A DNA stretch of 27,376 bases from Stentor roeselii (taxonomy: Eukaryota; Ciliophora; Heterotrichea; Heterotrichida; Stentoridae), in contig RSEH01000395.1 in NCBI GenBank assembly GCA_006503475.1, positions 1-27,376 of the forward strand. The letters run 5' to 3'. This document shows positions 231-26,715 of the stretch, in pieces. The position numbers were made by a program, and so were the translations under genes. A model generated the notes under the pieces. The model saw only the letters and a program-made list of their open reading frames with translations. It had not been told where the DNA came from and ran no database searches. Position 1 is the first letter of the stretch. The number at the start of each line of letters is the position of its first letter.

Positions 231-1074
231 TTAGATTATTAGTAATATCAAAGGCTTTCTAATTATTATAAAAAAATTTTAATACTCTGATTCAACCTAA
301 AGAGGTTGAAAGAATTCCGTTATGAAAAATTTCCAAACGAAAGTAAAATTGTATTTATGATAAGATATCTATTTAATTATTTCGATTTTGCCAATTCAGC
401 ACTTAAATTAACCTCAATAAATAATTTATCACTATTTATCCAAACCCACTTACCCTTCTTGTTTTAAATATTATTGATTTTAATCATTTCATAAGAGTTA
501 TTATTATAAATACCTTGATAGTTAATATTGAAAAATGATAAAAATATTTGATATCCAAAAGTCAAGATTTAGAATCAAAATGTTTAAAGCACTTAAATTC
601 TGATGTAGTCTCAAATCACAATATATTTGAAACCATCCAGAAAACTTTCAATAGTTCTATGCACAACTCCTCAGATATAACAAATTTTTAATACACAGAG
701 CTGATTAATAAATTTCTCCATAAAAGCAGATAGCTTCATTGAAGCTGCCGATTTCAAAGCATTTGACAAGTGATTTACAAAATAAGAAAAAATAATAAGT
801 TTATATTTATTAACCATTTGGGAATTTCTGAATATCAATAGAATTGATTAAGAGGATACAATTATAAATATTCAAGTTTATTATCCTCTACATTGAGTAG
901 CATCATTCAACAGCCATCACCGATCAACAATTTCTAAGCCATGTTACCATTAATCCCGGGCTGCCCTACCAGTAGTCATTCGAGATCCAAGCCTAAATAG
1001 CATCCCTATCTTCTCCAAGCCAGTCTGTTCTTAACCTTCTAACCTTCCTTCTCCACAAATAAATCATGTATTTT
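231..1074. other. No intact gene; decayed duplicate of 19057-19520 flank
   Basis: The stretch is AT-rich with stops in all frames. Its first ~460 bases align loosely, in the same order, with the DNA after the second channel tail: the post-stop segment near 231-260, the block near 245-300 (taatactctgattcaacc) and the block near 645-670 (agttctatgcacaa versus agctctatgcagaa at 19510). The second block also recurs near 21393-21420. It is best read as an old segmental duplicate with decayed 5' parts of WD40/channel-type genes. Confidence 0.45.
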
Positions 1075-1660
1075 GAACGAGAAAGTCAATCAGAATTGAT
1101 TGTCATCAAGGAGGAGCTGAAGCAACAACCATGATTTCGGGATTGATAAAAAAAATCCATAAAATAGTATTTAACAAGTGCGCACTGTCATAACCAGATT
1201 AAAGAAGAAAATCCTGGAAAAACCGAAAAAAGACTCAAGAAATGGTTCAAAATCAAGAACTTAAAGAAAAGATGTTGAAATCGCACCTGTAAAATTCAAA
1301 AAAGGTTTCGAAGAACCTGACACAGTAAATAGACAAGCTGAGTAACTGGAACATTTACTTGAACATGTTGGACCGGATGAAAATGAATAATTAAATCAAT
1401 GCGAACTCCGTCTAAGTATCGCTAATTTGATCTGGCATTGCTCATCACGGAGACTGAAAAATTTAGAGAAAGTCACTTCCAGTCTCGCCTAATTATACGA
1501 GAACTGCAAAACCTTTCATCTCTGAACGCAAATCAAGGACAACAATCGAGCAACTCGAAACGAACTTCGAACTACTCCAAGAAGTTGCTCTTCGAAGAAA
1601 TCCGCATTAAAAAGCTACTGAAAATCACTGAAAAGTAGGCGAAGACTCAGCTTGAAACAA
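1075..1660 (+). pseudogene. Coiled-coil protein pseudogene
   Basis: No single frame is open, but consecutive pieces in shifting frames look like one charged, heptad-rich protein: ESQSELIVIKEELKQQP near 1081, TQEMVQNQELKEKMLKS near 1235, VEIAPVKFKKGFEEPDTVN from 1277, then a piece around CELRLSIANL near 1401 and ITETEKFRESHFQSRLI from 1444. Two TAA codons interrupt the frame near 1344 and 1390, in RQAE[TAA]LEHLL and ENE[TAA]LNQC, and at least two frameshifts follow. The composition resembles centrosomal or axonemal coiled-coil proteins of protists, but no family can be named. A 66-codon piece (1438-1638) stays open by chance or by late decay. Confidence 0.5.
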
Positions 1661-1924
1661 CTTTTACCTAAAAAAAATTGTTTTGAGGGATGTACTGAAT
1701 ATTAGATTATTTGTGAGAATTCTGATATTTATCTTTGTGAGTATTACTTTATTTCATATTAATCATGAGTAATTTAACTGTATTCATCAAAATTAATGAG
1801 AATATGGAGAGAAGTTATTTTAATGATTAAGTTAGTATAAGGAATTTATTTTCAAAGAAAATGAGAGAAGGTAGCTTAAATGATTTTAGAATTTTTTATA
1901 TCAAAACCAAAAGATTTTAAACTA

Positions 1925-4039
1925 TTAAATTATTAACTGAAATAGATTTTTCTGTATTGGATTATAAAAATTCAATAAACCTTCATCTGAGATTCCTATA
2001 ATACAAAGAGCTGTTGAACTAAATAATCTCTTTTTCGTACTTTCATCAAATCCTTTTTGGCAGTAGATACCATCCTTCTCAAAAAAGGCAATAAATTTAA
2101 AATTTTTTGATGACTTGAATCCAAAGTTCTGTTTATTAACATCAATGAGTTCTGATTCAAAAACAATTTCAGGAATTTCAGGATTCAAATCTATAACTAA
2201 GAATTGTCTAGCCTTAATAATTAATAAGTTCATTCTTTTTTTAAATACGACTTTATTTCGAATGTGTCTCAAAGCATTAGTTTTAATAAAATTCATACTC
2301 ATATCCATAATACACCATATATCTCCTCTAGTAAGAATCCTGTATTTTCCACCTAGAGTAAAATACGATAGTTCTTTTAATGATTCTATTTTCATTTCAA
2401 TAGGTTGAAAGTTTTCTTCTACTGCATATGCTTTGCAAAACAATGATGCATTTTCTACTATTATAAATAAAATCAAAATGCTCTCTTCAAGCAATATAAA
2501 ATCAAAAACATAGACAGGCCTTAGATTAATCGCAAAGTCATGTTGTTTCATTAGATCTATCCGAAAATCATACCATTCTAAATATTTATAATTTTTTGGA
2601 TTAATCTTTTGCATTTGTTTCGGTTTTTCATAAAGCCTGCATGGAGTCTCAATCCACTCAAAATGATCATCATTTTCAAAACTGACTGAATAGTATTTTT
2701 TATTAAGTAAAAATTTTGAATATTTCGGAAGGAATTCCTTAATAATCTTGATATTTTTAATTGAATCAATATAAAGTGGAGGATAGAGTTTGCCTTTTCT
2801 TGAAAAAAATACCAGATTTATACAATTATAGTCTTGATTACAAAATGTTTCATGATCAAAATCTGAATCAAAATCAATAAGCATTACTCTGACAGCAGAA
2901 AATACCAATAGTTTATTAAGATTTATTTTCAAGTAGACTTTGTCATATTCCTTATGAAGGAAATCAAATTCCTTCACACAGGAATTATTTTTATTATGAA
3001 ACAATCTGAACTTCCATCCAAATTTATAATTCTGGTTATTAACTTTTACATTTCCATATTTGATTTCACTTCCCAGAATCATTAGATCTGTATTTGGCAC
3101 ATTAAAGAAAATACTTCGAGAAAATTTACAATTATAGTATTTGCCCAGCTGAGTAATCAACGTGCAAGTGATTTTTTCATAAATATATATTTGAGAACCC
3201 ACCAAGATTATAATCTTTTTATAATCACTTGAAAAATCTACTTGACTTATGTTTTTGAGTTTATTTTCGCGAATTCTATTGCATGCTGTTGACTCTTTTA
3301 GATAAAATACTATAGCAACTGGTGGATTACACATTATCAATGTTAGGTCATCAGCAATTTTAAAATTTGCATCATCAATTGTTTCATGTTTTATGCTTTT
3401 TTCTATTGAAAAACTGCTTATTTCAAATAGAATAATCTTCCTCTGTGTTGAGATAATAATATTATTGCCTATCACTTTATACTCTAAGCTGTTGCAATTA
3501 GGAATAGATTTTTTGATAATTTTATAGATAATTCCATCATTTAACCCTATAACAGTAATTGAAATGTTTAAAATAGCCAAAAGATAGTCCTTGCCTTTCC
3601 TTTGAAATTTTATTGGTCTACAATCCAAATAAAAACTCTTTTGCATCAGGTTCGATTTATAAGTCAGCACTTGCATATTGTCATTGATATATATCAAGAA
3701 CTGCTTTGAATTTGTAAAAGTATAGCTAAGGGTTTTATTTACATCTTCTTCAACAATACTTCTGAAGCTTGAGTGAACTTCCTCTCTGTAATAATCCTTA
3801 AAAATATCCCAACACATAATTCTATCTTGGTAATCAAGATGAATATACTTGAAATCGCTACTCAGAGTTATCTGCTCAATGTTTAGCAAGGTTCTCAGAA
3901 TGATAACCTTCTCTTTTTGATTGATTTCGATTATTACTGACTTTACAACAGTTTCAAGAGAACTGTTCGCTATAATCAAAATCTTGGTTTGACCAATTTT
4001 ATAAAAGCGATAAACATTTTCATATTCCTTAAGTTTCAT
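1925..4039 (-). CDS. Beta-propeller-like protein, 704 residues
   Basis: The frame runs from ATG 4039 to TAA 1925-1927. An in-frame TTG lies just upstream at 4042. The protein is rich in beta-strand-like stretches with degenerate WD40-like elements: an early segment with DFKYIHLDYQDRIMCWDIF, a middle one with SSDYKKIIILVGSQIYIYEK, and a last one ending in SDEGLLNFYN. No signal peptide or convincing membrane helix is seen. All of its 5 Trp codons are TGG and about 23 Gln codons are CAA/CAG. It lies 8 bp downstream of the 166-residue frame on the same strand, and the two may be exons of one gene; the frame remains open upstream of the ATG as far as a TGA near 4090. WD40-type propellers normally act as protein-interaction scaffolds. 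The specific role is unknown. Confidence 0.75.
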   Translation of the reverse strand: MKLKEYENVYRFYKIGQTKILIIANSSLETVVKSVIIEINQKEKVIILRTLLNIEQITLSSDFKYIHLDYQDRIMCWDIFKDYYREEVHSSFRSIVEEDVNKTLSYTFTNSKQFLIYINDNMQVLTYKSNLMQKSFYLDCRPIKFQRKGKDYLLAILNISITVIGLNDGIIYKIIKKSIPNCNSLEYKVIGNNIIISTQRKIILFEISSFSIEKSIKHETIDDANFKIADDLTLIMCNPPVAIVFYLKESTACNRIRENKLKNISQVDFSSDYKKIIILVGSQIYIYEKITCTLITQLGKYYNCKFSRSIFFNVPNTDLMILGSEIKYGNVKVNNQNYKFGWKFRLFHNKNNSCVKEFDFLHKEYDKVYLKINLNKLLVFSAVRVMLIDFDSDFDHETFCNQDYNCINLVFFSRKGKLYPPLYIDSIKNIKIIKEFLPKYSKFLLNKKYYSVSFENDDHFEWIETPCRLYEKPKQMQKINPKNYKYLEWYDFRIDLMKQHDFAINLRPVYVFDFILLEESILILFIIVENASLFCKAYAVEENFQPIEMKIESLKELSYFTLGGKYRILTRGDIWCIMDMSMNFIKTNALRHIRNKVVFKKRMNLLIIKARQFLVIDLNPEIPEIVFESELIDVNKQNFGFKSSKNFKFIAFFEKDGIYCQKGFDESTKKRLFSSTALCIIGISDEGLLNFYNPIQKNLFQLII

Positions 4040-4047
4040 CAATTTTA

Positions 4048-5499: not shown

Positions 5500-6661
5500 T
5501 TATTTATTTTTGATAATATTCAAGATTTCAATAATCATATAATCAACGCTCACAATTTTTGTTTCCAGAACCTTGCTTTTTACATCAGAAATCATGCTTT
5601 CTACTTCCAAAATCTTACTTTCTAGTTCAATTCCATTTGATGCTTGCAGATCCACTTGCAAGAAACTGTTCATTCGGAGAAAACATAACTGAGTTTAGTT
5701 TTGTTGAGGGCCTATGAGAGTGAACTCTATTTGTTTGTTCTATAGATTCTAAATTATAATATTTTTCCCAGAATGTCTTGCAAGAAACACCGTCATAAGA
5801 AAATAAAACTGGCCAAACATCACTTTCATGGCCATTGAGCGTGAATTCTTCTCGCTTTTGCTGAGTATTCCTAATTTTGATACTCTTGTCTGCAGATCCC
5901 ACTAACGATATACTTTTCATCAGGAGAAAACACAACAGAGCGAACATAGCATGACTGGCCATTGAGACCGAATTCTTCTTGTTTATTCTGCAAATTTAAA
6001 CTATGATGTTGTTATCGTGAGATACGCTTAAAGGTAAATTTCCCATCCTGAGAAAAATCAACTGAGAGTACTTTATCTAAATGCTTTCTTAGAATTAATA
6101 TTTCTTGTAGTTTCTTTAATCCCAAATTTTATTCTCCTGTCATCAGACCTTGGCTAGTAGTATTCCATTTGAAGAAAAGTCAACTGAGTTTATAATAGTT
6201 GCATGGCCTTCAAGAGTAAATAATTCTTGTTTCAGCAACAAACTCCAAATTTAATTTTTTGATACAATAAACTCGCGAGATTTTCCCATTCGGAAATAGA
6301 CTAAGTAGAATAATTATACAGAGTAAAATATTCTCGCTCCTCCTAAAAATTCCAAATCATTATCCTTTCATCAGACACACTTGCAAGCAACTTATTATCT
6401 GATAATAAAAAATGGAATTTACAAAGTTTGAATATTTTATAAACTGAACTCTTCTCGCTTCTCTTTAATTACAAATTTTTATGATGTCAGAAGATTCACT
6501 AGCAAGAAACTTTCTATTCAGGTATTCAGTATAGCCAAGACACATACAGCCTCTTCACCAATGTATTTTTCTGATTTGATGTTGAAGACTTTGGCCTTAC
6601 TGGATCCTTCTCGAACTAGAATAGGATGGACTACTGAACCTATTGACTTAACTTCTTCCAT
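5500..6661 (-). pseudogene. WD40-repeat protein pseudogene with channel-type coiled-coil ending
   Basis: Read from 6661 downwards, an ATG opens MEEVKSIGSVVHPILVREG and then successive WD40 repeats in shifting frames. Recognisable elements are NRKFLASESSDIIKI, LLASVSDERIMIWNF, LFTLEGHATIINSVDFSSNG, VLSVDFSQDGKFT, SCYVRSVVFSPDEKYIVSG, SADKSIKIRNTQQKREEFTL and NSVMFSPNEQFLASGS. About seven repeats are present, one full propeller. At least six frameshifts and several TAA/TAG stops separate them. The last repeat is cut short and runs into a coiled-coil tail (about 5634-5500) with IELESKILEVESMI and the ending IIEILNIIKNK followed by TAA, which matches the ending of the two channel tails in this window. 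It lies tail-to-head behind the PG-rich pseudogene, 15 bp away. Confidence 0.8.
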
Positions 6662-6676
6662 ATTTTTTATCACCCC

Positions 6677-7774
6677 CTAAGAACCTGGTGAAGAGTAAAG
6701 GTTTGGACGGCTGTTGGCATTCTTTTTCTTTTGCTTATAAAGACACTTGAACCTTTGGGTTGACTGGTTACTGTTTTATGAAACTCGTAAATGCCTGGAC
6801 TTGGAGAGTCTTTGTTTCTGTGTAACAGTTGAACCAGTCTTGACCTCCTCTGCGTTGAGTTGGTCTTACTCCTATTTTGGTTTCATAACTTCCTGCGCCA
6901 GGTCCAGCATCAACGCATTCAACACCCTTGGTCCAGTAAAATCAAAAAGAGCCTTCCCTTCAACCCCAAATTTTCCATTCTCCAAAGAAAAATAACTTCC
7001 AGGTTGTATATCAGGAGTCATAGCTCTAAACCTTTCACACCTACTTCCAAAATTCTTAACCCTATCAACATGACTCTGATTCCAAGCAGTTCCAAAGTTC
7101 TACCTTCCAGGAACATCTTTCTCACTAATAAACTCAGGCAAAACCATCCCTTTTACTTCTTCTTAAAAATGATGCACTTCCTTATCTTTATACCTTGGTT
7201 TAGGTGATTTAAAATCATAAGAAGATTTTCCTCGAATTATTATCCTTGAAGTTGAAGGCCTTCCCCAGATATAAAGTCTTGGCTTTTAGGACTTTTAGGG
7301 TCATAATACCCAGGACCGACCAGTGACTCTTTACTTTCTGAGACCTTCTTCATGACGAGTTCTCAGTATTCATCATCTGAGTAGCCTTCTCTCGGAATAG
7401 ATGGCGCTGAAGACTGTCTAATCGAGTTAATCGTTGTTTCAGTCTTGTTGGACTGTTTTAATGACGGCCAAGGTTGAGTGTCGTAGGCTTCTGGACTTTT
7501 GTATGTTTTCAGCTGGAGCATTTCGGTTTTACTTGCAAAAGAAGAAGAGAGGATTATGTTATTCATCGGACGAGGCTTCAATGTCTTAAGAAGGTTGGAA
7601 CCTGACATGGAGTTAGGACTTCATCACGGAAACAGATTTTTCAGATGATATGCAAAATGGAACTTTTCCTTGCTTTTTCTTGTATAAGTTTAAACCGATG
7701 TAGCTACCTGGACCAATTTTGTTGCGGTTTTGATAGAGAACTAGTTTTCGTTCAGATTTATGGACATATGCCAT
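6677..7774 (-). pseudogene. Sperm-tail PG-rich repeat (SHIPPO-like) axonemal protein pseudogene
   Basis: ATG 7774 starts MAYVHKSERKLVLYQNRN followed by KIGPGSY. Later pieces carry LVGPGYYDPKSPK and TPDIQPGSYFSLENG. GPGxY is the signature of sperm-tail PG-rich repeat proteins, which bind axonemal microtubules in motile cilia. The protein is spread over three frames: start to about 7620, then 7608-7240 interrupted by one TGA near 7363, then about 7270-6677. The last piece is some 200 codons long, has no indel, and is interrupted only by TAA/TAG codons (HHF[TAA]EEVKG, PGR[TAG]NFG, KPK[TAG]E[TAA]DQL, RVS[TAA]NSN). It ends at TAG 6677-6679. The + strand frames here are shadows. The family call rests on the three GPGxY-type motifs. 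Confidence 0.65.
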
Positions 7775-8049
7775 GATTACATTTTTGAATATTTATAAAG
7801 TTTACAAGAATGATGTGATTGTGGGCTTTTTATTGATTTTTGGAAGTAACTTATATTAAAATAATCATTTTTTTCTTGGAGTAGTTTGGAAATATTTAAA
7901 TTATGATTGAAGAGTTATCGAAAAGTTTGAAAGTTTTTTGAATATAAAGTTGATGAATTTCAAATTGAATTTTAGAATTTAGGTTGATATTATTTATTAA
8001 AGTTTTTCTGATTTCTGATCATTTTCTAAGGGGTTATAATAGGTAGTTG

Positions 8050-9202
8050 ATGGTAGAACAAACTGAAGAATTATAATCGATTCCAAATGGCACGAAGTGA
8101 CAGAGATATTTGACGAATCTGAAGCAAACTTTGCTGAGAGGGATCTACTCATAAGTTTTGAAAAACCGTCAGCAATCCAGCAAAATGGAATTAAACCCAT
8201 CATCTTGGGCAGAGATACTATCGCCTAGGCTCAGTCAGGTACAGGGAAGACCTCAACTTTCACTGTTGGGATGTTAGAACTGAAAGACAACTCAATCAGC
8301 TATTCTCAAGCATTGATTTAGCTCCAACATAGTCGTGCTTCAGACCGGCCAGTACCTGAAAAAAAACTGCCACGCCTGCATTGGAGGAACAGTAATGCGA
8401 GAAGACATCCGTATTCTCAAAAAAGGTTGTCACGTAATCGTCGGTACCCCAGGCCGAGTATTCAACATGATATCCTGAAACAACCTGACCACAAGTCAAT
8501 TAAAACTCTTCATCTTAGACGATGAGATACTATCAAGAGCTTTCAAAGACCAGATCTAACAAATCTTTAGACATTTTCCAGGAAACGTGCAGTGTTGCTT
8601 ATTTTCAGAGACCATGCCTGCAGAAATCTTGAAGTTGACAATAGACTTCATGAGAGACCCAATTCGCATCTTGGTGAAGAAAGACGAGTTAACATTAGAA
8701 GGAATAGCTCAATATTATATTCCTATTGAATAAAAGACTGGAAATTTGCAACTTTGGCTGATTTTTATGAAAAACTTGGATATTGATCAGGCTATTATTT
8801 ATGTGAATACCAGAAGGAAAGTAGAAGCACTTAACAAGCAAATGACTGAGAAGAAATTTGTTGTTTCGTATATGCATGGAGAAATGGACCAGAGTAAAAG
8901 GGAACTTATTATGAAGGAGTTTAGGACCGGATCAACTAGGGTGTTGATTACGACTGATTTACTGTTAGAGGAATTGATGTCCAGCAAGTCTCTCTTTGAT
9001 CAATTATGATATGCCTACTAAATATGAAAATTACTTCCATAAGATTGGAACAAGTATAAGATTGGAACAAGTGGAAGGTTTGGAAGAAAGAGAGTCGCTA
9101 TTAACTTTGTCACTGAGGCTGATGCACAGTTTTTAATGATTTAGAACAGCGTTATATACCAGCATTGAGGAGTTGCCTGAAAATCTGAGTAATCTTCTTT
9201 AG
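8050..9202 (+). pseudogene. Eukaryotic initiation factor 4A (DEAD-box RNA helicase) pseudogene
   Basis: Translating piecewise gives most of eIF4A in order: SFEKPSAIQQNG (Q motif), AQSGTGKT (motif I), [97 protein letters not shown] and a C-terminus IEELPENLSNLL before TAG 9200-9202. The functional gene would be an RNA helicase of translation initiation. It is dead here. The LAPTREL region is deleted, the DEAD box is reduced to LDDE, SAT has become SET, a 17-bp duplication breaks the HRIGR region, and at least five frameshifts plus internal stops occur. One TAG sits exactly at the conserved Gln of IAQAQSGTGKT, a TGA at a basic position after FNMIS, and a TAA at the Tyr of KDQIYDIF. The start at ATG 8050 is a guess. 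Confidence 0.93.
9039..9072 (+). repeat. 17-bp perfect tandem duplication inside the eIF4A pseudogene
   Basis: ataagattggaacaagt occurs at 9039-9055 and again at 9056-9072. It shifts the frame in the middle of the HRIGRxGRFGRKG motif, so it is a post-inactivation (or inactivating) slippage event. Confidence 0.95.
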
Positions 9203-9448
9203 TAATTATCAGCTACTAACCCAGATTTTCTTTATAATTTATAGAGATATTTGGTGATTTGATTAGTTTAGTGATTTTTATGGTTTAAATTTAGCGATAG
9301 GAAACATTTTAGGTAAGAAACATTACCAAAACAAGACCTGAGTGATAAGATAAGAACTTTATACCCCAGCCTAGCTCATCTCCATCTCATTGAAAGTTAC
9401 TAGTTTAATATTGAAGTTTGATAAAACCCGGCATTTTGAATTTATAAA

Positions 9449-11716
9449 ATGAGCAATCAAAAGAAAATATTCCCAAAGACCGCCAAGAGCTACTGCATAA
9501 GATGCCTGGCCACTTTCAAGGGCGAGAGCCCTGAAAGTTGCATCGAACTCAGGAGTCACCTCTTAAACACTGAAAAATGTGATAAGGAGGGATGTCAAAT
9601 AAAGCCAAAGGGGAGCTGCGTAAGGAGGTTCAAACGGAAGCGAATTTATCATATCTGCATCTCTCCTGCAATATATGAGGAGAGAATGGTGAGGCTGTTT
9701 GCGTATGACCCTATGGTCAGCCAGGGCCTCTTGGTAGTAGCGCCTCCTCTGCCTGTTTCGCCTCCTCTGCCTATTTCGCCTCCTCTGCCTATTTCGCCTC
9801 CTCTGCCTATTTCGCCTCCTCTGCCTGTTTCGGCTCCTCTGCCTGTTTCGCCTCCTCTGCCTGTTTCGCCTCCTCAGGAAGAAGAGCCTTTAAATCAAAG
9901 CACGCTACTCTCCATCAGAGGAGTAGTAATGACCTTGGGCCAGGTTGCGACGATTGCTTACGAGCAGATCGAAGAAAACATGAGAGACCTGTGGGAGTTG
10001 ACTTCCGGCATCCTTCAAGGGTCTAACGAGGTAGCTGGAGTCCACGCGATTGATTTTTGGAATCAAATCGCTCATCAAGAAGCTTTCCTGATGTCTCAAG
10101 GGAAGCCTTCTAAAGGGTACATAGCCACTGCAGCGGCTAGTCTTGTACCCTTGCTCCTCGCAAGAATCCACTCGCTTGAAGAAGACAGCGAAGAGTGGAA
10201 CATTGAAAAGGCCTGTGCAAGTACTATAGGGTCAATTTGCACAGTTGTCAATGATAGTATCTTGCCTATTGTTGGTGAGTACATCTTGACTAACCTGCAA
10301 ATTCCTGACCCTCGGAAGAAGACCTCAGCAGTTCTCATCATCGGCTTCTTATCTGAAGGACTCAGTGATGCGAAACTATTGGTTCAGGAAGTGTTTAAGT
10401 CTTTACTTGGACTTCTTAATGACTTTTGTTTGAAATTAAGGGAAACTTCTGCCTGGAGCTTGAGGAAACTCTGTGAGTTTCACGCGAAGACTATCATTGA
10501 AAATGGGTTTTTTCTTGAGATCCTTGAGAAAATTATCATTTTGCTTAAAGATACTCCGACCATCGCAACTCATGTTTGTTGGACTATTATTTACTTGTTT
10601 AAAAAAGGTGCAATTAATGAAATGTTGAACCAGGAAATGATTCAGTGCATTTTGAGCTCTGTTTTTGATGCAAGTTTGAGACCTGATGCTTATGATAATG
10701 GGGATGAACTGGTGATTGCCATTTATTGCTGTATCAACTCGATCATTGAAGAGGTTCCTGAAAGTTTTTTCAGTTATTTTACTAACCAGATACCTGTTTT
10801 TATACAGCTACTTGAAAATACTGTCACAAATCCGGTTCATGCTCCTACTCAGGGGCTTCTTTGCTCAGCTATTCGAACTATCTTTGGAAGATCTCAACTT
10901 GGAATGGTTGATGAGGGTAATGCAGATAAGTTCATGGATACTATCATTCGGATTTTTAAAATGAAAGGCATTGTAATCGAGGAAGGCCTGCAAGCAATCG
11001 TTTCATTAGGCAAAAACATCTCATCACGTTTCGTGAAATACCTAAATACCGTAATGCCATTCGTTATCAGGTGTATAGAAAACCCATTCTCCTTCCTATG
11101 CGAACCAGGAATAATCGCTTGCGGTGATATTTCTCGTACAGTGGGTGAAGGCTTCGGCACTCAAATCCTATCATTAATTCCCAAGCTTCTATCAATTCTC
11201 GAGAACCCGGATAAGACATTTCAAGTAAAAGTCCGAGTGATATACACATTAGCCGATTTCGCTTTTCACAATGCCGGAATAACTTCTAATTACTTGCCAA
11301 CCATCTTCAAACTTATCGGCGAACGAGCAGAAATAAGTTTAAAAGAGAACGAAATAGATTCAGAGTACTTTGAATGTTTTTTACTGTTGCGAGAGGCGAT
11401 CATGAGTTTTTATGTAGGGATCATCAAGGGTCTTCATGAAAAGAAACAAGAAGGAATCTTGAACGGGTATTTGCAGGGAATAGGCGAATACGCACTTCAA
11501 GTAGTTCAAGATAAGTACAAGCCGAGCATTGATATTCACATCAGCGTAATAGGACTTATTGGAGATATCGCGTCGTACTTCGAATCGAAATTGGGTCAGT
11601 TAATTCACTCACCACTGGTAAAGGAATATTTGGCCGCCGCTGCTCAGTCCGAGGATGAGACTATCAAGGAAATTCTAGCATATACAAATGAAAGGATTAA
11701 AACTTGTTTAGGTTGA
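9449..11716 (+). CDS. Importin-beta-like HEAT protein with a novel N-terminus (755 residues)
   Basis: ATG 9449 follows tttataaa, with an in-frame TGA upstream at 9437. The frame ends at TGA 11714. Residues ~155-755 match importin beta from about HEAT 6 to the end, with recognisable landmarks VAGVHAIDFWNQIAHQE, LRETSAWSLRKLCE, IATHVCWTIIYLF, FVIRCIENPFSFLCEPG and a final HEAT helix. Importin beta carries cargo through nuclear pores and is released by RanGTP. The missing N-terminal ~220 residues hold a major part of the Ran-binding surface and nucleoporin contacts. In their place are residues 1-98, rich in Cys/His (C16, C19, C31, H37, C44, C49, C57, H68, C70) with a basic cluster RRFKRKR at 59-65, and then seven PPLP[V/I]S repeats (99-142). 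No internal TAA, TAG or TGA occurs despite 28 Gln, 21 Cys and 5 Trp. It is the best-preserved gene of the window. Confidence 0.9.
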   Translation: MSNQKKIFPKTAKSYCIRCLATFKGESPESCIELRSHLLNTEKCDKEGCQIKPKGSCVRRFKRKRIYHICISPAIYEERMVRLFAYDPMVSQGLLVVAPPLPVSPPLPISPPLPISPPLPISPPLPVSAPLPVSPPLPVSPPQEEEPLNQSTLLSIRGVVMTLGQVATIAYEQIEENMRDLWELTSGILQGSNEVAGVHAIDFWNQIAHQEAFLMSQGKPSKGYIATAAASLVPLLLARIHSLEEDSEEWNIEKACASTIGSICTVVNDSILPIVGEYILTNLQIPDPRKKTSAVLIIGFLSEGLSDAKLLVQEVFKSLLGLLNDFCLKLRETSAWSLRKLCEFHAKTIIENGFFLEILEKIIILLKDTPTIATHVCWTIIYLFKKGAINEMLNQEMIQCILSSVFDASLRPDAYDNGDELVIAIYCCINSIIEEVPESFFSYFTNQIPVFIQLLENTVTNPVHAPTQGLLCSAIRTIFGRSQLGMVDEGNADKFMDTIIRIFKMKGIVIEEGLQAIVSLGKNISSRFVKYLNTVMPFVIRCIENPFSFLCEPGIIACGDISRTVGEGFGTQILSLIPKLLSILENPDKTFQVKVRVIYTLADFAFHNAGITSNYLPTIFKLIGERAEISLKENEIDSEYFECFLLLREAIMSFYVGIIKGLHEKKQEGILNGYLQGIGEYALQVVQDKYKPSIDIHISVIGLIGDIASYFESKLGQLIHSPLVKEYLAAAAQSEDETIKEILAYTNERIKTCLG
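9743..9874 (+). repeat. 18-bp tandem repeat, seven units, encoding PPLP[V/I]S
   Basis: Units of cctcctctgcctgtttcg, with the variants cctatttcg and one gctcctctg, encode a Pro-rich linker between the Cys/His-rich segment and the HEAT domain. PPLP is a known ligand class for WW domains. The low divergence between units indicates recent expansion. Confidence 0.93.
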
Positions 11717-12235: not shown

Positions 12236-12377
12236 CGATAGTAACTCGTGATTTTATTAGAATTTTTTAGAATCTTTCGAATTGAGCTAATATTTTATCA
12301 ATGGAAATTTTGATCTGCTTCAGAAGCATGCAAAAATATAAACATTGAATAGAAACAAAATTTAAAACACGGGAAAA

Positions 12378-12722
12378 ATGTTTAAAGACTTTGGAAGGAA
12401 ATCATTGATGTTCGGGCCTGAGACTTCCAAGAATTTAAATCAAATTGTAGGATATTTAAAGGAGCGGAAATTGCAAGAAGTTTTAATAGTATCGGACTCA
12501 AAAAGTCACTTTCACACTTCAATTTTGACGTTGAACCGATTTTTCAGCCTGTTTAAACTTCTCGAAACTCCTTAACAGACAAAAATTGTAAGTTTGAAAT
12601 TCTCAGCAGGAGACTTTTCCATCAAAGCTAAAGCCCAGTCCAGTAATCCTCCCCTTACTCTCCTCAAATTCCTCCACAACTCATCAAAACTAGAGTACCA
12701 TTTAAAACTTTACTACCTATAA
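12378..12722 (+). pseudogene. Hypothetical protein, interrupted by TAA
   Basis: ATG 12378 starts MFKDFGRKSLMFGPETSKNL, and the frame is open for 65 codons to TAA 12573-12575. It then continues in the same frame with protein-like sequence (QTKIVSLKFSAGDFSIKAKA, LTLLKFLHNSSKLEYHLKLYYL) to TAA 12720-12722. Either the first 65 codons are a small gene, or a ~115-residue frame carries one nonsense codon. No family is recognised. It converges on the EF-hand pseudogene, 12 bp away. Confidence 0.4.
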
Positions 12723-12733
12723 ATAGTCTAAAC

Positions 12734-13735
12734 CTAATGCTTATCAAGATGAAGATTGTATATAATCGATACAAATTTCCCATTATACTCAAGCTGATGC
12801 GACAAAAGTATTCTGACAATATCAGAAAAAGTAATCTTTCCAGTATCAGCCGGGTCAAAAAACTTAATAAGTCTTTCATTTTCTTCAAAAATATCGAGAA
12901 TAGCCAAGAGTTCTGAAAACTGTTTAGCAGTGAGAAGACCAATGTTTTCAGTGTCAATAATTGAGAACTTTTTCTTTAAAGGCTTCAAGGAGCTGGTCAT
13001 GTTCAGTCACCTGAAACTCAAGAAGAAGGCTGAATGTCGAGTAGCTTAAAGTCGACTTGCCTTGAGCCTTCGAAGCCTTGACTGAATGCGCTCGGCGTGT
13101 TCGTTGAGAAGACTTATAAGGTATTGGTTGTCTGAAGGGGTGTAAATGTAATTCACTCTTCTTCGAGGTCCCTTGAGTCTTTGTTGAGAGAAGGCCACTT
13201 ATTCCCTTTTCTTGAATGTAGGGAAATTGTTTTTTAGGAGGATTTTTAATAGAAGGAGTGGATTTTTTTTACGTCTTGGATTATGCTACGGTAGGACTCT
13301 TCGATTTAATGACGAAGAATCTTAGCGAATAGAAGGATCTCCGGTCTTCGGCTTCAAACTTGTCAACAGCTTTGATCACTGCATTTTACCAGTCGTTTTT
13401 TAGGGTCTTCATACCGTATTTCTTGTTCAGGTATGAGTCCATGTATTTCTTCATTGTTTCTTTTGGTAAGTGCATCTGTGAGCACTTCATATCACACTTT
13501 TCCTTACTCGTATAAATATCATCAATAAACTCTTTCAACTGTTTCAAAGTTAAATCTTCAATAGTAAAACCTGAGAAATCCTACCCGTGACTTTTTTAAG
13601 ATCACGAGTTTTTTCCTTAACAACCTTAGGTGCAGAGTAGCTTCTAATATCTTTATAAAGTGCACTATCCGCTTTTTCCTTAGACAAGCTGAGTATCTTC
13701 TTATGAAACTGTGATATTTTAAATTCTACGCTGAT
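12734..13735 (-). pseudogene. EF-hand protein pseudogene, probably ciliary
   Basis: From 13735 downwards the pieces read EFKISQFHKKILSLSKEKAD, GFTIEDLTLKQLKEFIDDIY, MKKYMDSYLNKKYGMKTLKNDW, NAVIKAVDKFEAED, LLFAKILRH, IEESYRSIIQDV, a Lys/Ser/Pro-rich linker, VTEHDQLLEAFKEK and two degenerate EF-hands (FSIIDTENIGLLTAKQFSEL and FFDPADTGKITFSDIV), ending at TAG 12734-12736. From memory, the YLNKKYG...W and KILRH..EE.YR order resembles a protist EF-hand protein family linked to cilia. Inactivation is shown by TAA after NDW and after ILRH, and by 1-nt shifts near 13350, 13260 and 12970. A further shift near 13580 is neatly repaired if the 14-nt segment gtaggatttctcag is spliced out, which hints at very short introns. 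The start is not found. Confidence 0.7.
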
Positions 13736-17762: not shown

Positions 17763-18061
17763 AGAATTGAAGGAGTTTGTATTGACATATTAATTGGTAT
17801 ATAATTGATTAGAAAATAGTTAAATAAGAACAATGGATTTTAAAAAACTAGTGAAACCTTTAATCAAAACTCTTAAGTAAATATTTTATATATTATTAAG
17901 TTGATAATAATTATAGAAAATAAAATCAAATAATTCTATTTATTAAAATTAGAACTTCATATGCATTACTTCACTTAAAATTAAATTTCTAAACTATTAG
18001 CACAGTAAATTTCTTAAAATCCAACAACTATCACTATTATCGTCATTTTCATTAGATAATT

Positions 18062-19056
18062 ATAAATTATGTTTGAGTAGAATTATGCATTACATCGATG
18101 GCAGATTTAAAGAAGTATCAAAAGTGACATTCGAGGAACATTAGAAATTTTCTATGGTCTCAACAATATATTTGGCTCCTCTTCATAGCATCAAGCATTA
18201 CTTGAATAGTTTAATTTTGTATTACTGATCAAGTGATATCAAGGTTTAATTTTGACGTCGTTATTTGTTCTGATTTGGAATGGGACTCAATTTCAAATAA
18301 TTTAGACTTAAAGTAGATTTCTATAGAGCCAATTTTTTGATTCTCATATTTGGATTGTTTTCTGTGAGCAAGTACGTTTAGTTGACTGGAAAATACTTAA
18401 ATCATAAAAATTAATTGTAACTGAATAAAATAATTAAAAAGGGAAATCTGTGATTGACTCTGATAATCGATTTTTCTGGGAAACTATTCTTTGTTATTAG
18501 GAAGATTATTACAGGAGCTAATCCACACTTTAGTTTAATATATATTACAATTATTGTTGCAACAGTTTTTAATGTGATATTAATGCTGAATCTCCTCATT
18601 TCGATATTAGGAGATAGCTATGACTTATTTATGCTTGAAAAAACTATTTATGATTATAAAGAAAAACTAGAAGCTTGCATTGAAATTCAGAAAACGTTGA
18701 TTTGAAATAGAAGACATGCTAGAAGAATATTTTATCAGATTCTTTCGAAGGCTTTTGATAACGAACAAGGAGAAAATAATGACTGGCAAGGAAAAATACT
18801 CTATACAGAAAAGAGACAAGAAAAAAGAATTGAAGAACTTGCAAGCAATCAAAAACAAATGCAAGATAAAATCGAAAAACAGATTTCTGGAGTAGAAAGC
18901 AAGATTAAAGAAAATATAGAAAAAAAGATTTCTGGAGTAGAAAACAAGATTTCTGGAGTAGAAAACAAGATTAAAGAGAATATAACTGGAATAGAAAACA
19001 AAATTGAGAATCTTGATGAAAAGATTTTAGAGATCTTAAACTTCATCAGAAATTAG
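18062..19056 (+). pseudogene. Polycystin/TRP-like channel C-terminus with coiled-coil tail
   Basis: The well-supported part starts at 18454: a hydrophobic pore/S6-like helix (IYITIIVATVFNVILMLNLL followed by ISILGDSYDLFM), then a helical linker, a single TGA at 18703-18705 after KTLI, then NRRHARRIFYQILSKAFDNE, a coiled coil of 7- and 11-residue units (KISGVEN, KIKENITGIEN) and the ending DEKILEILNFIRN at TAG 19054. The NxxLMLNLLIxxxGDS order is characteristic of the last membrane helix of polycystin/TRP-type cation channels. Upstream (18062-18450), frameshifted hydrophobic pieces (VDFYRANFLILIFGLFSVS) suggest decayed earlier membrane helices. Apart from the one TGA, 18454-19056 is open for 200 codons. 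Confidence 0.65.
18874..19008 (+). repeat. Degenerate 21/33-bp coding repeats of the coiled-coil tail
   Basis: Units based on aagatttctggagtagaaaa (7 codons) and on the 33-bp unit seen at 6-170 alternate here. The mixture shows that heptad and hendecad units exchange by unequal recombination. Confidence 0.8.
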
Positions 19057-20455
19057 TAATTAGATTATTCAGTAATATCAAATGTTGTCAAATTTTAAAA
19101 ATGCTGGGGTATGTTCAGAATATAAAAATAATAGCAGGTTCTCTATTTAGCATAATCAAAAGTTTTCTAGTAACTTATTAACGAGTTTAATACTCAGACC
19201 AAATTTAAGATGTCTAAATAAGTAGGAATATAGTGATAATTATTGTTATGGTGACAAATGTTTTTAATTATTTAGGTAGTTTAACCTGCTTAATATAGCA
19301 ATATTGAATTACTTGAAGCAGATATCATACTATAGATACATATCTAAAATATTTAGTGAATTATCATGAGAAAATACTTATAAATTATTTATTTTATAGA
19401 GTTTCATTAAAGATAATGCTTTAAATATTATATGACTTTTTATAAAATAGGACTTCTCCTAGACTTAAAATCAGAACTTTTCAAACTTCACCACTTAAAT
19501 TTTCGATAGCTCTATGCAGAATACCTAAGAAATTAACGAGTTTATGAAAATTTAAGCTACTCTAACTTACTAACAAATCTTTTATTCTGTTAAAAAAATT
19601 GGTTTAAGGAGAGCAAGAGGTTAGTAAAAATATCAGGAAGCTCGCATGAAAAAATCAAGTAAGTCTCAGCTTTCGGCTTATAAAGTATTTTCTTTGCAAC
19701 TAGCAGCTTAATTCTCTAAAACTAAGAATTAGCCAAATTTTAATTATGGAGAACCAACAAGAAAACGGAAGAAAAGTATATAGATTGCATTTTCTAAAAA
19801 TTGACTTTCTTAATACTTGAGCTATCAAATAGGCTTATACTTTAATTATATATACCGATAATAATCTAGATTATATTATGATATAAAACATTAATCTATA
19901 TCAATTTAAAATTTATAAAATTAAATCCCAGCTATTTATAATTATATGTTCATCTAACTAGAGAAGTTAATAAATCCTTATTATAATGATTTTTAATATA
20001 TAATGAACAATGACTAAATCTTTTAGATTAATATCGAGTTTAATTTGCGAGGTTAAAACAGAATCCTGACAGAAAGGAATCAAATCATATAAATTTTATA
20101 TTAATGTAGAGTGTTAATGAGGAAAGGTATAAAAATAAATAAAGGTTTCTTAGACTTTGAATACTCAATCTAAGCACTTTCGATGATATCTCAAATAGCA
20201 AATAATTTTAATGATTTCTAAGTCCTGATATTCGCAGAAATATGGCCTATGTAGATGAACTCTTGAGGTTGTATGACTAGGCTCTTTTCTTCATCTGAAT
20301 AAGAAAGCAGATCATTATCGAGAAATAATGAGTTTTTTTAAATGACACTCAAATGTAAAAAATGTAACTCGCGTAAATTTATGTAACATATTTTGTGATT
20401 GGGCGACGATTTTTTTTAAAATTCTTCTAAAAATACAAAAAACAATGAGAATTTC
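19057..20455. other. No intact gene; left part duplicates 231-690
   Basis: 19057-19520 aligns loosely with 231-690 (post-stop flank, taatactcagaccaaat at 19187, agctctatgcagaatacct at 19508), with an insertion of ~70 bp at 19085-19155. 19570-20455 is AT-rich and shows nothing recognisable. Confidence 0.45.
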
Positions 20456-21384: not shown

Positions 21385-22010
21385 CATATTCTGATTCAGT
21401 CTAAAGAGGGTGAATTTTTTATGGTTCATTCTTCAATGCTTATTTAAAATCCTTCCATACTAGAACATCAATAAAATTTTACTCTTGGCAGATCTCAAAG
21501 TTGAATTCAGGGGTTTCAAAGAATCGATTGAAGGTTATGAGAGAATTAATTACTCAATTGTTTTTACTCTGCTGATGGAATTCATATGGCAACTGGATAT
21601 ATGGAGGGATGTTTAAAATCTGGAATATAAAAGAAAAAAGAGAATAATTCACTCTAAATAGAAATTTAATATTGGTAGCTTGCTGTTCTTACTCTCCTGA
21701 TCGAATTGTCTAGTAATTTTAGCAATTGATACTCAGTTTCTAATTTTGAAATCAGAAAACAAAGAGAAGATTTTCATTTAATTATTCATCCGAAATTCAG
21801 AATTAAGGATTGTTTACAGAATACGGCTATTCAATTAATCCAATACATTATTCAAATTATTATAATTTATCCCCCTTAAGCTAAATTCATATTACTGAAG
21901 CATAAGACCTTCGAACGATGGATTATTTACTCTTGAATATAAAGATAATGATACTATTTCGTTTTGGAATATTGTAGAGAGAAGAGAGATTTCGTTTAAA
22001 ATTTAAATGC
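21385..22010 (+). pseudogene. WD40-repeat pseudogene fragment
   Basis: From 21488 a frame gives ADLKVEFRGFKESIEGYERI, then after a 1-nt shift SADGIHMATGYMEG, then KIWNIKEKRE, TAA, FTLNRNLILVACCSYSPD. Around 21920-22005 another repeat reads FTLEYKDNDTISFWNIVERR. The KIWN and ISFWN cores with KRE/RRE endings match the minus-strand WD40 pseudogene at 5500-6661, so both belong to one family. The block at 21393-21420 (ctgattcagtctaaagaggg) recurs near 278-306. Confidence 0.6.
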
Positions 22011-25414: not shown

Positions 25415-26110
25415 CTGATTCAGGCAAGAGCCCTGACCCAAGGCAGATGTTTTCCAATACCAAAGACTAATACTATCCTTCCTCAGAAGTCTAAACATTA
25501 ACAATTCTATCAGTCCAGAAGTGGCGATTCAAACAAGTTTTCTGAAATGATCAGAAAGTTTTTCAGCCAAGGATTCCAAACGAATTTTAAAACTTGATTA
25601 TCATGAGTGTGAAAAAAAGTAAAGGCCCATTCATCATCCCATGCAAAAGCAAATCAAGTCCTCCAATAATAGGTGATCAAGGCATTTCATTTGAAGATTT
25701 TCTCTGAATTGCAAGTTACTTCATAAATCTAAATTTCAAAAACCCTTCATCATCAATCCCAACAAAATTATGTAGAAGATTGCAAATTCAGTGAATCCTT
25801 AATGACATATGTGTAACTTAAGACTCAAGTTGTATTTTCGCATGCAGAAATCCTTCAAATTGTGAACTTTGTATCGTTTAAACCTTCTTACTTTGTGATA
25901 ACTACTACTACTATGAGAAAATAGTTTCCCAAAAGACAAAACTGTTTCTGTCAATATATTCATTGGAAAATTGACAGATATAAATGTGAAAATAGTCCTG
26001 ATGTTTATTTAGAGTTTATTTGACTTCAAGTTTGTCCTCTTGGCTACAAGCCCGCATCAGACAATTGTAACAATAAGTACGAAAACTGAAAAGCTGTGAG
26101 TTTTGATTCA
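25415..26110 (+). pseudogene. Cysteine-rich surface-protein-like remnant
   Basis: At 25804-26090 the frames give SSCIFACRNPSNCELCIV, TAA, TFLLCDNYYYYEN, then SFPKDKTVSVNI and, after a shift, LQVCPLGYKPASDNCNNKYEN before TGA. The regular CxxC and CPxGY patterns resemble the Cys-rich (furin-like) repeats of protist surface proteins. Upstream, 25415-25610 holds weaker pieces (PDSGKSPDPRQMFSNTKD, QSRSGDSNKFSEMIRKFF) that may or may not belong. Stops and shifts make it non-functional. Confidence 0.4.
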
Positions 26111-26715
26111 ATGAAAAAACTCTTGAGTTTAAGGATCTGGCTTCTAATGTTTGAACCAGCACTGGAAAAAATGATGCAAATTTTTAAGCTTTTCAGAGGA
26201 ATTTCTTTTCCAGAAATTATTTCCTTTTAGATTTCCTAGAAGTCCTCATTGACTACTTTTGATTGGTCTTCGGTTTTTATTTGGGTCAACTCAAATTGAA
26301 GGAGTTTTGTTGAGAAAATTTTAGCATATATAGGATTTAATTGAAATAAAATTAAGAGATTGAGTTTTATTGGGAAAGTCATGATTAGATAAGGAGAAAG
26401 TCTTGAAATAAACCCTGAGAAAATATTATTAGAGGATTTTGGAAGCATCTTTGATATCGGTGCAATTCTTTGTTTTTAATGATTTTTCTTTATATGTGAA
26501 TGGTGTATAAGTATCATTACATTATTCAGCAGTTATTTTATTGATTAGAGATGAAGACGATTTGAATCGGATCTTATTTTTCAGGAGTTTGATTTTTTTA
26601 AGAATTAAATCAAATTTTTCGAGTAAAAGACTTGATTTTAACACTTCTGCTTTGAAAATTGTTAAAATTTAAATCTTGAAAACAAAAAGTTTAACAGTGG
26701 CCTTTACACAAGGCA
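26111..26715. other. Spacer
   Basis: A 70-codon minus-strand frame (26448-26236) is Ile/Leu/Phe-rich without pattern and is not supported. Nothing else is recognised. Confidence 0.4.

Follow-up and report, generated by a model that had tools for sequence, protein, structure and literature searches.

Forms of importin beta that are deficient in Ran binding are known as laboratory constructs. A close parallel to the gene described here is the engineered vertebrate fragment 71–876, in which removal of the N-terminal region abolishes RanGTP binding while cargo binding stays in vitro, and which blocks Ran-driven release (PMC3246454). This agrees with the Ran-binding role that an earlier, sequence-only reading of our locus had given to the importin N-terminus. 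Two nucleoporin sites have been placed in importin beta, in residues 1–396 and 304–876 (PMC2324082). Tetrahymena is also a ciliate with expanded importin betas (11 beta and 13 alpha members); most of its importin betas are associated with the macronucleus alone and nine of the alphas are specific to the micronucleus, and the passage that states this describes no truncated or module-fused member (PMC4432229), unlike the locus reported below.

Structure of the chimeric open reading frame

The window analysed here comprises 27,376 nucleotides of Stentor roeselii DNA (RSEH01000395.1, contig C341 in our numbering). It contains an open reading frame (ORF) in which an importin beta that lacks its N-terminus is preceded by a foreign module of about 150 residues. 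Judging from the sequence, we tentatively read the ORF as a chimeric, N-truncated importin duplicate that is probably coding and possibly a Ran-insensitive competitor for IBB or cargo binding, a reading that we hold with slightly less than even confidence. The features are as follows.

9449–11716, forward strand: the chimeric ORF (755 aa), a foreign N-terminus joined to an N-truncated importin beta (ORF list, Pfam, phmmer, alignment)
9390–9740, forward strand: DNA of the N-terminal module, homologous to C374:6859–7271 and C401:11921–12345 (76–77% identity, query from 9290 onwards)
9494–9658, forward strand: Cys/His-rich stretch, C16 to C70
9623–9643, forward strand: basic cluster RRFKRKR, residues 59–65
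9741–9875, forward strand: 18-bp minisatellite, 7.5 copies, encoding [PA]PLP[VI]S
9872–9901, forward strand: post-repeat stretch matching C401 at the equivalent site
9902–9916, forward strand: putative module/importin junction, from the last C401-like base to the first C366-like codon (R157)
9917–10345, forward strand: importin tract 1, codons 157 to ~300 (comparison with C366)
10166–10198, forward strand: acidic loop equivalent HSLEEDSEEWN, residues 240–250 (alignment to human via C366)
10346–11716, forward strand: importin tract 2, codons ~300–755 (89% nucleotide identity to C366, dS about 0.19)
10454–10456, forward strand: W336, human W430 in the alignment (via C366)
10580–10582, forward strand: W378, human W472 in the alignment (via C366)

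The frame opens with the ATG at 9449 and closes with a TGA that ends at 11716, and another in-frame TGA lies slightly upstream of the ATG. The sequence-only reading had described a single uninterrupted frame of 755 codons, and its coordinates are exact. Its count of nine Cys/His positions in the first 150 residues also holds: residues 1–155 include seven Cys and two His (C16, C19, C31, H37, C44, C49, C57, H68, C70), and the basic cluster is where it was said to be. Seven PPLP[V/I]S units had been reported; seven six-residue units do span residues 99–140, but one of them reads APLPVS and six are PPLP[VI]S. The underlying 18-bp repeat is tandem, with 96% matches.

In the 755-aa protein, Pfam identified TPR_IMB1 (1.4e-40, residues 358–728) and gave no match for IBN_N. 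Yeast and vertebrate importin beta proteins matched the ORF from residue 161–180 onward (phmmer). The match to a human importin beta-1 chain starts at residue 161 (human residue 239) and that to C366 at ~157, close to the start at about residue 155 that had been proposed. By the standards of the importin beta-1 family the ORF thus has the TPR_IMB1 arch and, in alignment, the Trp and acidic loop (EEDSEEW) positions, and it has neither IBN_N nor HEATs 1–5. In addition to the two Trp listed above, W250, at the end of the acidic loop equivalent, aligned with human W342 (via C366). We take W342, W430 and W472 to be the IBB-contacting residues of human importin beta, and presume the function of the acidic loop likewise. 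A literature search under the three Trp residue names gave no match.

Importin-beta-like genes in the genome

We searched the genome (44.4 Mb, 522 contigs) with the ORF and found nine places, namely the ORF itself, five importin-beta-like genes, the module in C374 and C401, and a weak HEAT match in C511 (3.1e-4). The five genes encode proteins of 831, 830, 824, 823 and 804 aa, all full-length and without an internal stop. IBN_N was matched in C366, C51, C161 and C236, while C196 fell just below the cut-off (20.9 vs 21 bits), so the importin N-terminus that the ORF was said to have lost is indeed absent from it and present in the five other genes, marginally in C196.

The closest relative of the ORF is the 831-aa gene at C366:10516–13011, the full-length paralogue for which a genome search had been proposed. 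It has 76% identity to the ORF over residues 157–752 in the genome search, as compared with 21–30% for C51, C161, C196 and C236. Human importin beta-1 (KPNB1/Kap95) can be aligned with its product over residues 6–866, and this product is colinear with the ORF from ~157 to the end, with TPR_IMB1, Trp and acidic-loop positions in common. The ORF differs in having the foreign N-terminus in place of the first ~235 residues of the C366 protein, which include IBN_N and HEATs 1–5. Amino acid identity between the two is 62% over residues 157–305 and 80% over 306–755.

A whole-genome search with C366 residues 1–263 found seven places, the same five genes (C366, C161, C51, C196, C236) and two weak matches (E 0.09 and 0.66). 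None was in the window contig, so there is no upstream N-terminal half that could be spliced onto the ORF, and this alternative was ruled out.

The genome holds four full-length importin-beta-1-like genes (C366, C161, C51, C196) and the more divergent C236. In four of the six pairs among C366, C161, C51 and C196 that were compared, identity was about 24–30% in the C-terminal two thirds and 40–45% in the preceding segment.

A mosaic of three pieces

The ORF is a mosaic of the module (~150 codons), importin codons 157 to ~300 and importin codons ~300–755. At positions where the ORF and C366 have the same amino acid (Met and Trp excluded), the same codon is used in 36 of 85 cases before codon 300 and in 313 of 355 after it; none of 500 permutations reached the contrast observed for the codon-300 breakpoint. 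In agreement, dS (NG86) is saturated or 2.4 in residues 170–299 and about 0.1–0.3 afterwards. The NG86 value for the whole part in common (0.34) is a mixture of the two tracts. On the other side, divergence from C374/C401 rises from 3–5 to 15–17 per 60 sites near 9385–9390. With boundaries at ~9390 and ~10346, the module/importin junction falls inside one divergent tract that has younger flanks. This tract (9390–10345) may have evolved faster than its flanks, or it may be the older part, in which case both sides would have undergone gene conversion or recombination. The origin of the ORF as a mosaic at a duplication junction is well supported.

The duplicated block and its pseudogenes

The window and C366 have blocks in common at about 82–86% identity (local alignments), with their order changed. 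In C366 the importin gene is followed by other genes and then by eIF4A, whereas the order in the window is SHIPPO-like gene, eIF4A, module, importin and downstream genes. C366 frames of 406, 490, 510 and 131 aa are open, and their counterparts in the window are all broken.

8009–9199, forward strand: eIF4A-like pseudogene (name by eye; C366 copy open, 406 aa), 12 frame-breaking indels and 4 stops in 1173 aligned nt
6565–7774, reverse strand: PGPGSY-repeat (SHIPPO-like, name by eye) pseudogene of the 490-aa frame, 8 frame-breaking indels and 3 stops in 1210 aligned nt
12737–13701, reverse strand: pseudogene of the 510-aa EF-hand-like (name by eye) C366 gene, 8 frame-breaking indels and 2 stops in 964 aligned nt
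12349–12719, forward strand: pseudogene of the 131-aa C366 frame, 4 frame-breaking indels and 1 stop in 371 aligned nt

Thus, the description of the ORF as intact amid dead genes is true for the four neighbours that can be compared. An inverted second SHIPPO-like/eIF4A block occurs in C366 (1–2194 vs 17997–20231, 89%), and the copy at the contig start is itself broken.

Frame retention and selection

Compared with C366, the ORF does not have the disrupted frame of a pseudogene: it has no stop and one frame-breaking indel, at 11699 in the last six codons, in 1342 aligned nt. The four neighbouring pseudogenes together have 32 frame-breaking indels and 10 stops (42 lesions) in 3718 nt. Relative to them the ORF has one frameshift where 11.6 are expected (Poisson P 1.2e-4; 4e-6 when stops are counted too), in a test that is post hoc, the ORF having been chosen for being intact. 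In the DNA downstream of the ORF, 24 of 28 indels relative to C366 are frame-breaking (1977 nt), and nucleotide identity to C366 is 0.889 there and 0.892 in the ORF.

The two importin tracts behave differently. Codons 157–305 have 144 nucleotide differences, distributed 36/29/79 over the three codon positions, with 57 amino acid differences vs a mean of 87 in the neutral simulation, and no stops vs 4.7. This points to strong purifying selection over a long divergence, which may predate the truncation. Codons 306–750 have 145 nucleotide differences (48/39/58 by position) and 87 amino acid differences, about as many as the 89 of the neutral simulation with 144 changes, indicating little amino-acid constraint there. 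Stops are also lacking in this part, where 2.7, 3.9 and 5.4 are expected for 72, 100 and 144 changes; simulation runs with zero stops made up 5%, 2% and 0 of 400, respectively. Hence, the argument that intactness speaks for selection stands in part: the frame has been kept significantly better than in the neighbours, but the 3′ two thirds show near-neutral amino acid change, and the pattern is not simply one of purifying selection.

Omega is 0.52 for codons 306–750 of the ORF and 0.26, 0.43, 0.20 and 0.86 for the dead neighbours, so that the ORF value lies above three of the four. Of 77 columns that are invariant in C161, C51 and C196, 12 differ in the window only and none in C366 only, 16 differ in both copies and 49 in neither. 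When all sites at which the two copies differ are counted, outgroup agreement with C366 rather than with the window is 25:6 in tract 1 (P 0.0009) and 31:15 in tract 2 (P 0.026). We infer that the window copy is the faster or relaxed one, yet it has an open frame.

Some of these results would suit a decaying duplicate, in which a non-functional truncated importin has a frame that is open by chance or died recently and the N-terminal extension is an accident of the flanking DNA. We consider this a real possibility, though on the whole doubtful. It would explain why all four comparable neighbours are pseudogenes, why the window copy is the one that departs from conserved columns, and the near-neutral change in codons 306–750 and the even codon positions of the module (see below). 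The contig is also gene-poor: stop-free frames of 150 codons or more make up 20% of its bases vs 63% in C366 (19% to 89% in the other stretches compared). The lesion deficit (post hoc as it is) and the lack of stops in codons 306–750 argue against decay, as does the purifying signal in codons 157–305, although the latter is perhaps older than the truncation. On balance, the ORF is probably a coding gene that has been kept.

Origin of the N-terminal module

The module DNA (9290–9740) has only two other matches in the genome, in C374 and C401, and a protein search returned the same two (E up to 10). Each copy follows the 3′ end of an eIF4A sequence, just as the module does in the window, and both are frame-broken relative to the window. 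Downstream of the module, C374 continues into unrelated sequence, and in C401 a minisatellite with a 48-bp unit occupies the place of the 18-bp one of the window. In the post-repeat stretch, 23 of 30 bases are identical between the window and C401 (E 2e-4 in a 70 × 400 base comparison). About 0.3 kb further on in C401 is a Fanzor-like fragment (C401:12814–13560), with matches to Parasitella Fanzor1 (2.4e-5) and to the larger Fanzor-like frame of this genome in C499 (1.4e-10), which in turn matched Spizellomyces Fanzor1 (1.9e-26). Thus, DNA upstream of a Fanzor (eukaryotic TnpB-like) locus, C401:11921–12550, is homologous to the ORF module and has its minisatellite likewise placed. The window differs in that it has no RuvC or other Fanzor part, and Pfam and phmmer searches of the 755-aa protein for parts of Fanzor or TnpB-like nucleases (RuvC, OrfB zinc-ribbon) gave no match; the module as a Fanzor N-terminus is only conjectural. 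Upstream of the other Fanzor copies examined, the module had only weak matches (E 0.26–0.62, vs 2.7e-10 for C401 itself), so the link between module and Fanzor is based on one locus, C401.

The new N-terminus is not a domain conserved alongside importins; it corresponds to a DNA tract common to two degenerate loci. The module matched no family in Pfam (E up to 10) or NCBIfam, its best match in the PDB had an E of 0.42, and none of three pattern matches in viral contigs was confirmed. By eye, residues 16–44 have a spacing like that of a C2HC finger (C-x2-C-x3-F-x10-L-x2-H-x6-C), with no Pfam family match. Substitutions unique to the window are spread evenly over codon positions (15/18/18 at 77/77/78 sites), indicating no general protein constraint on the module. 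The Cys/His residues look preferentially kept, a weak signal: relative to C374, 8 of 9 are retained as against 33 of 68 among the other residues (p 0.023), and relative to C401 the figures are 8 of 9 and 32 of 64 (p 0.029), two tests that are not independent because C374 and C401 differ at just 17 of 232 sites. Possibly the module is a zinc- or nucleic-acid-binding extension used for tethering, or just a tolerated leader.

A real gene could instead be translated from M161 or M178, inside the frame, with the module as its 5′ leader and a product that is simply an N-truncated importin. The lack of codon-position constraint and of Pfam or NCBIfam matches would be expected from such a leader. We nevertheless think this improbable, given that the module frame is open over 155 codons, that its Cys/His residues look kept, and that the surroundings of the ATG at 9449 are A-rich, as they are at seven other gene starts (in DNA that is AT-rich anyway).

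Further Fanzor-like genes or fragments were detected at C499:1–1827 and C401:35–412 and 515–1693, and also in C461 and C504. The C499 frame bears a Cas12f1-like TNB domain.

Proposed origin and function

The reading that we prefer is a kept chimeric gene. The ORF arose by rearrangement of a segmental copy of the C366 block: an eIF4A end, followed by Fanzor-adjacent DNA, now abuts the importin at the equivalent of codon ~235. The Fanzor-adjacent DNA carries the Cys/His-rich frame and the minisatellite; the neighbouring copied genes have died, and the importin frame has not. The alternative that the chimera is absent from the expressed genome, C341 being mis-joined or germline-limited, is very unlikely: C341 is a 27-kb contig without telomere repeats, and the segmental and inverted duplications that link it to C366 and C401 are complex, but a mis-join would have its break at the module/importin junction, and the divergent region runs coherently across that junction and ends well away from it on either side (~9390 and ~10346).

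Because its frame is protected, the ORF is likely translated. With less certainty, the product would keep the importin arch (HEAT ~6 onward, three Trp and acidic loop) without HEATs 1–5, and would therefore bind importin-alpha/IBB or cargo with a weak or no response to RanGTP. If made, it would be a variant that competes with the full-length importins or works by sequestration. As one nucleoporin site of importin beta lies in 304–876, the C-terminal site should remain in the product. By its anatomy alone, the predicted product fits a Ran-insensitive importin beta of the dominant-negative type. Fragment 71–876 is similarly truncated, but it is artificial, with a shorter deletion and no added module, whereas the ORF has lost more of the N-terminus. 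A Ran-blind function is a reasonable conjecture for the product. A bolder version, which we regard as unlikely, is a natural Ran-blind importin that would have gained a zinc-finger-like, basic and proline-repeat front by recombination from the Fanzor side and would serve as a trap for cargo or as a nucleus-tethered regulator of import in a cell that has two kinds of nuclei. The retention or dominant roles suggested in the sequence-only reading would be conjectural. Nucleus specificity of the product is possible, though what is described for Tetrahymena concerns chiefly the importin alphas (PMC4432229).

If the ORF is expressed, a Ran-binding-deficient importin beta would be encoded in a genome, and this would show that cells can put a laboratory trick to regulatory use. 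In a ciliate it would be relevant to how different proteins reach two nuclei that share a cytoplasm. The locus also illustrates how a chimeric coding frame may be born at a segmental-duplication junction from DNA adjacent to a mobile element, and remain readable as the genes around it decay.

Genetic code and other features of the window

Frames longer than 250 aa (26 in total) end in TAA (13), TAG (8) or TGA (5). A non-standard code was ruled out, as all three stops end long frames and the five importin paralogues have no internal stop. For the eIF4A copy of the window, decoding of TAA and TAG as Gln was also ruled out, since the C366 copy reads as an open frame. Three copies of CCCTAACA gave 220 forward and 327 reverse matches, and none in the reversed control; many of these triplets, among the matches listed, are at the first bases of contigs. 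A repeat of this type and the standard code go with heterotrich ciliates.

Another open frame amid the pseudogenes, at 1925–4042 on the reverse strand, is intact over 705 aa and had no Pfam match (E up to 1). Window positions 25651–26508 match C401:4115–5001 at 79%, a further segment common to both contigs, and 21558–21725 match a tandem-repeat region of C374 (about 1000–3200) at 69–76%. An array of 33-bp repeats occupies positions 1–240 of the window, with a 91% copy 19 kb away at 18941–19069.
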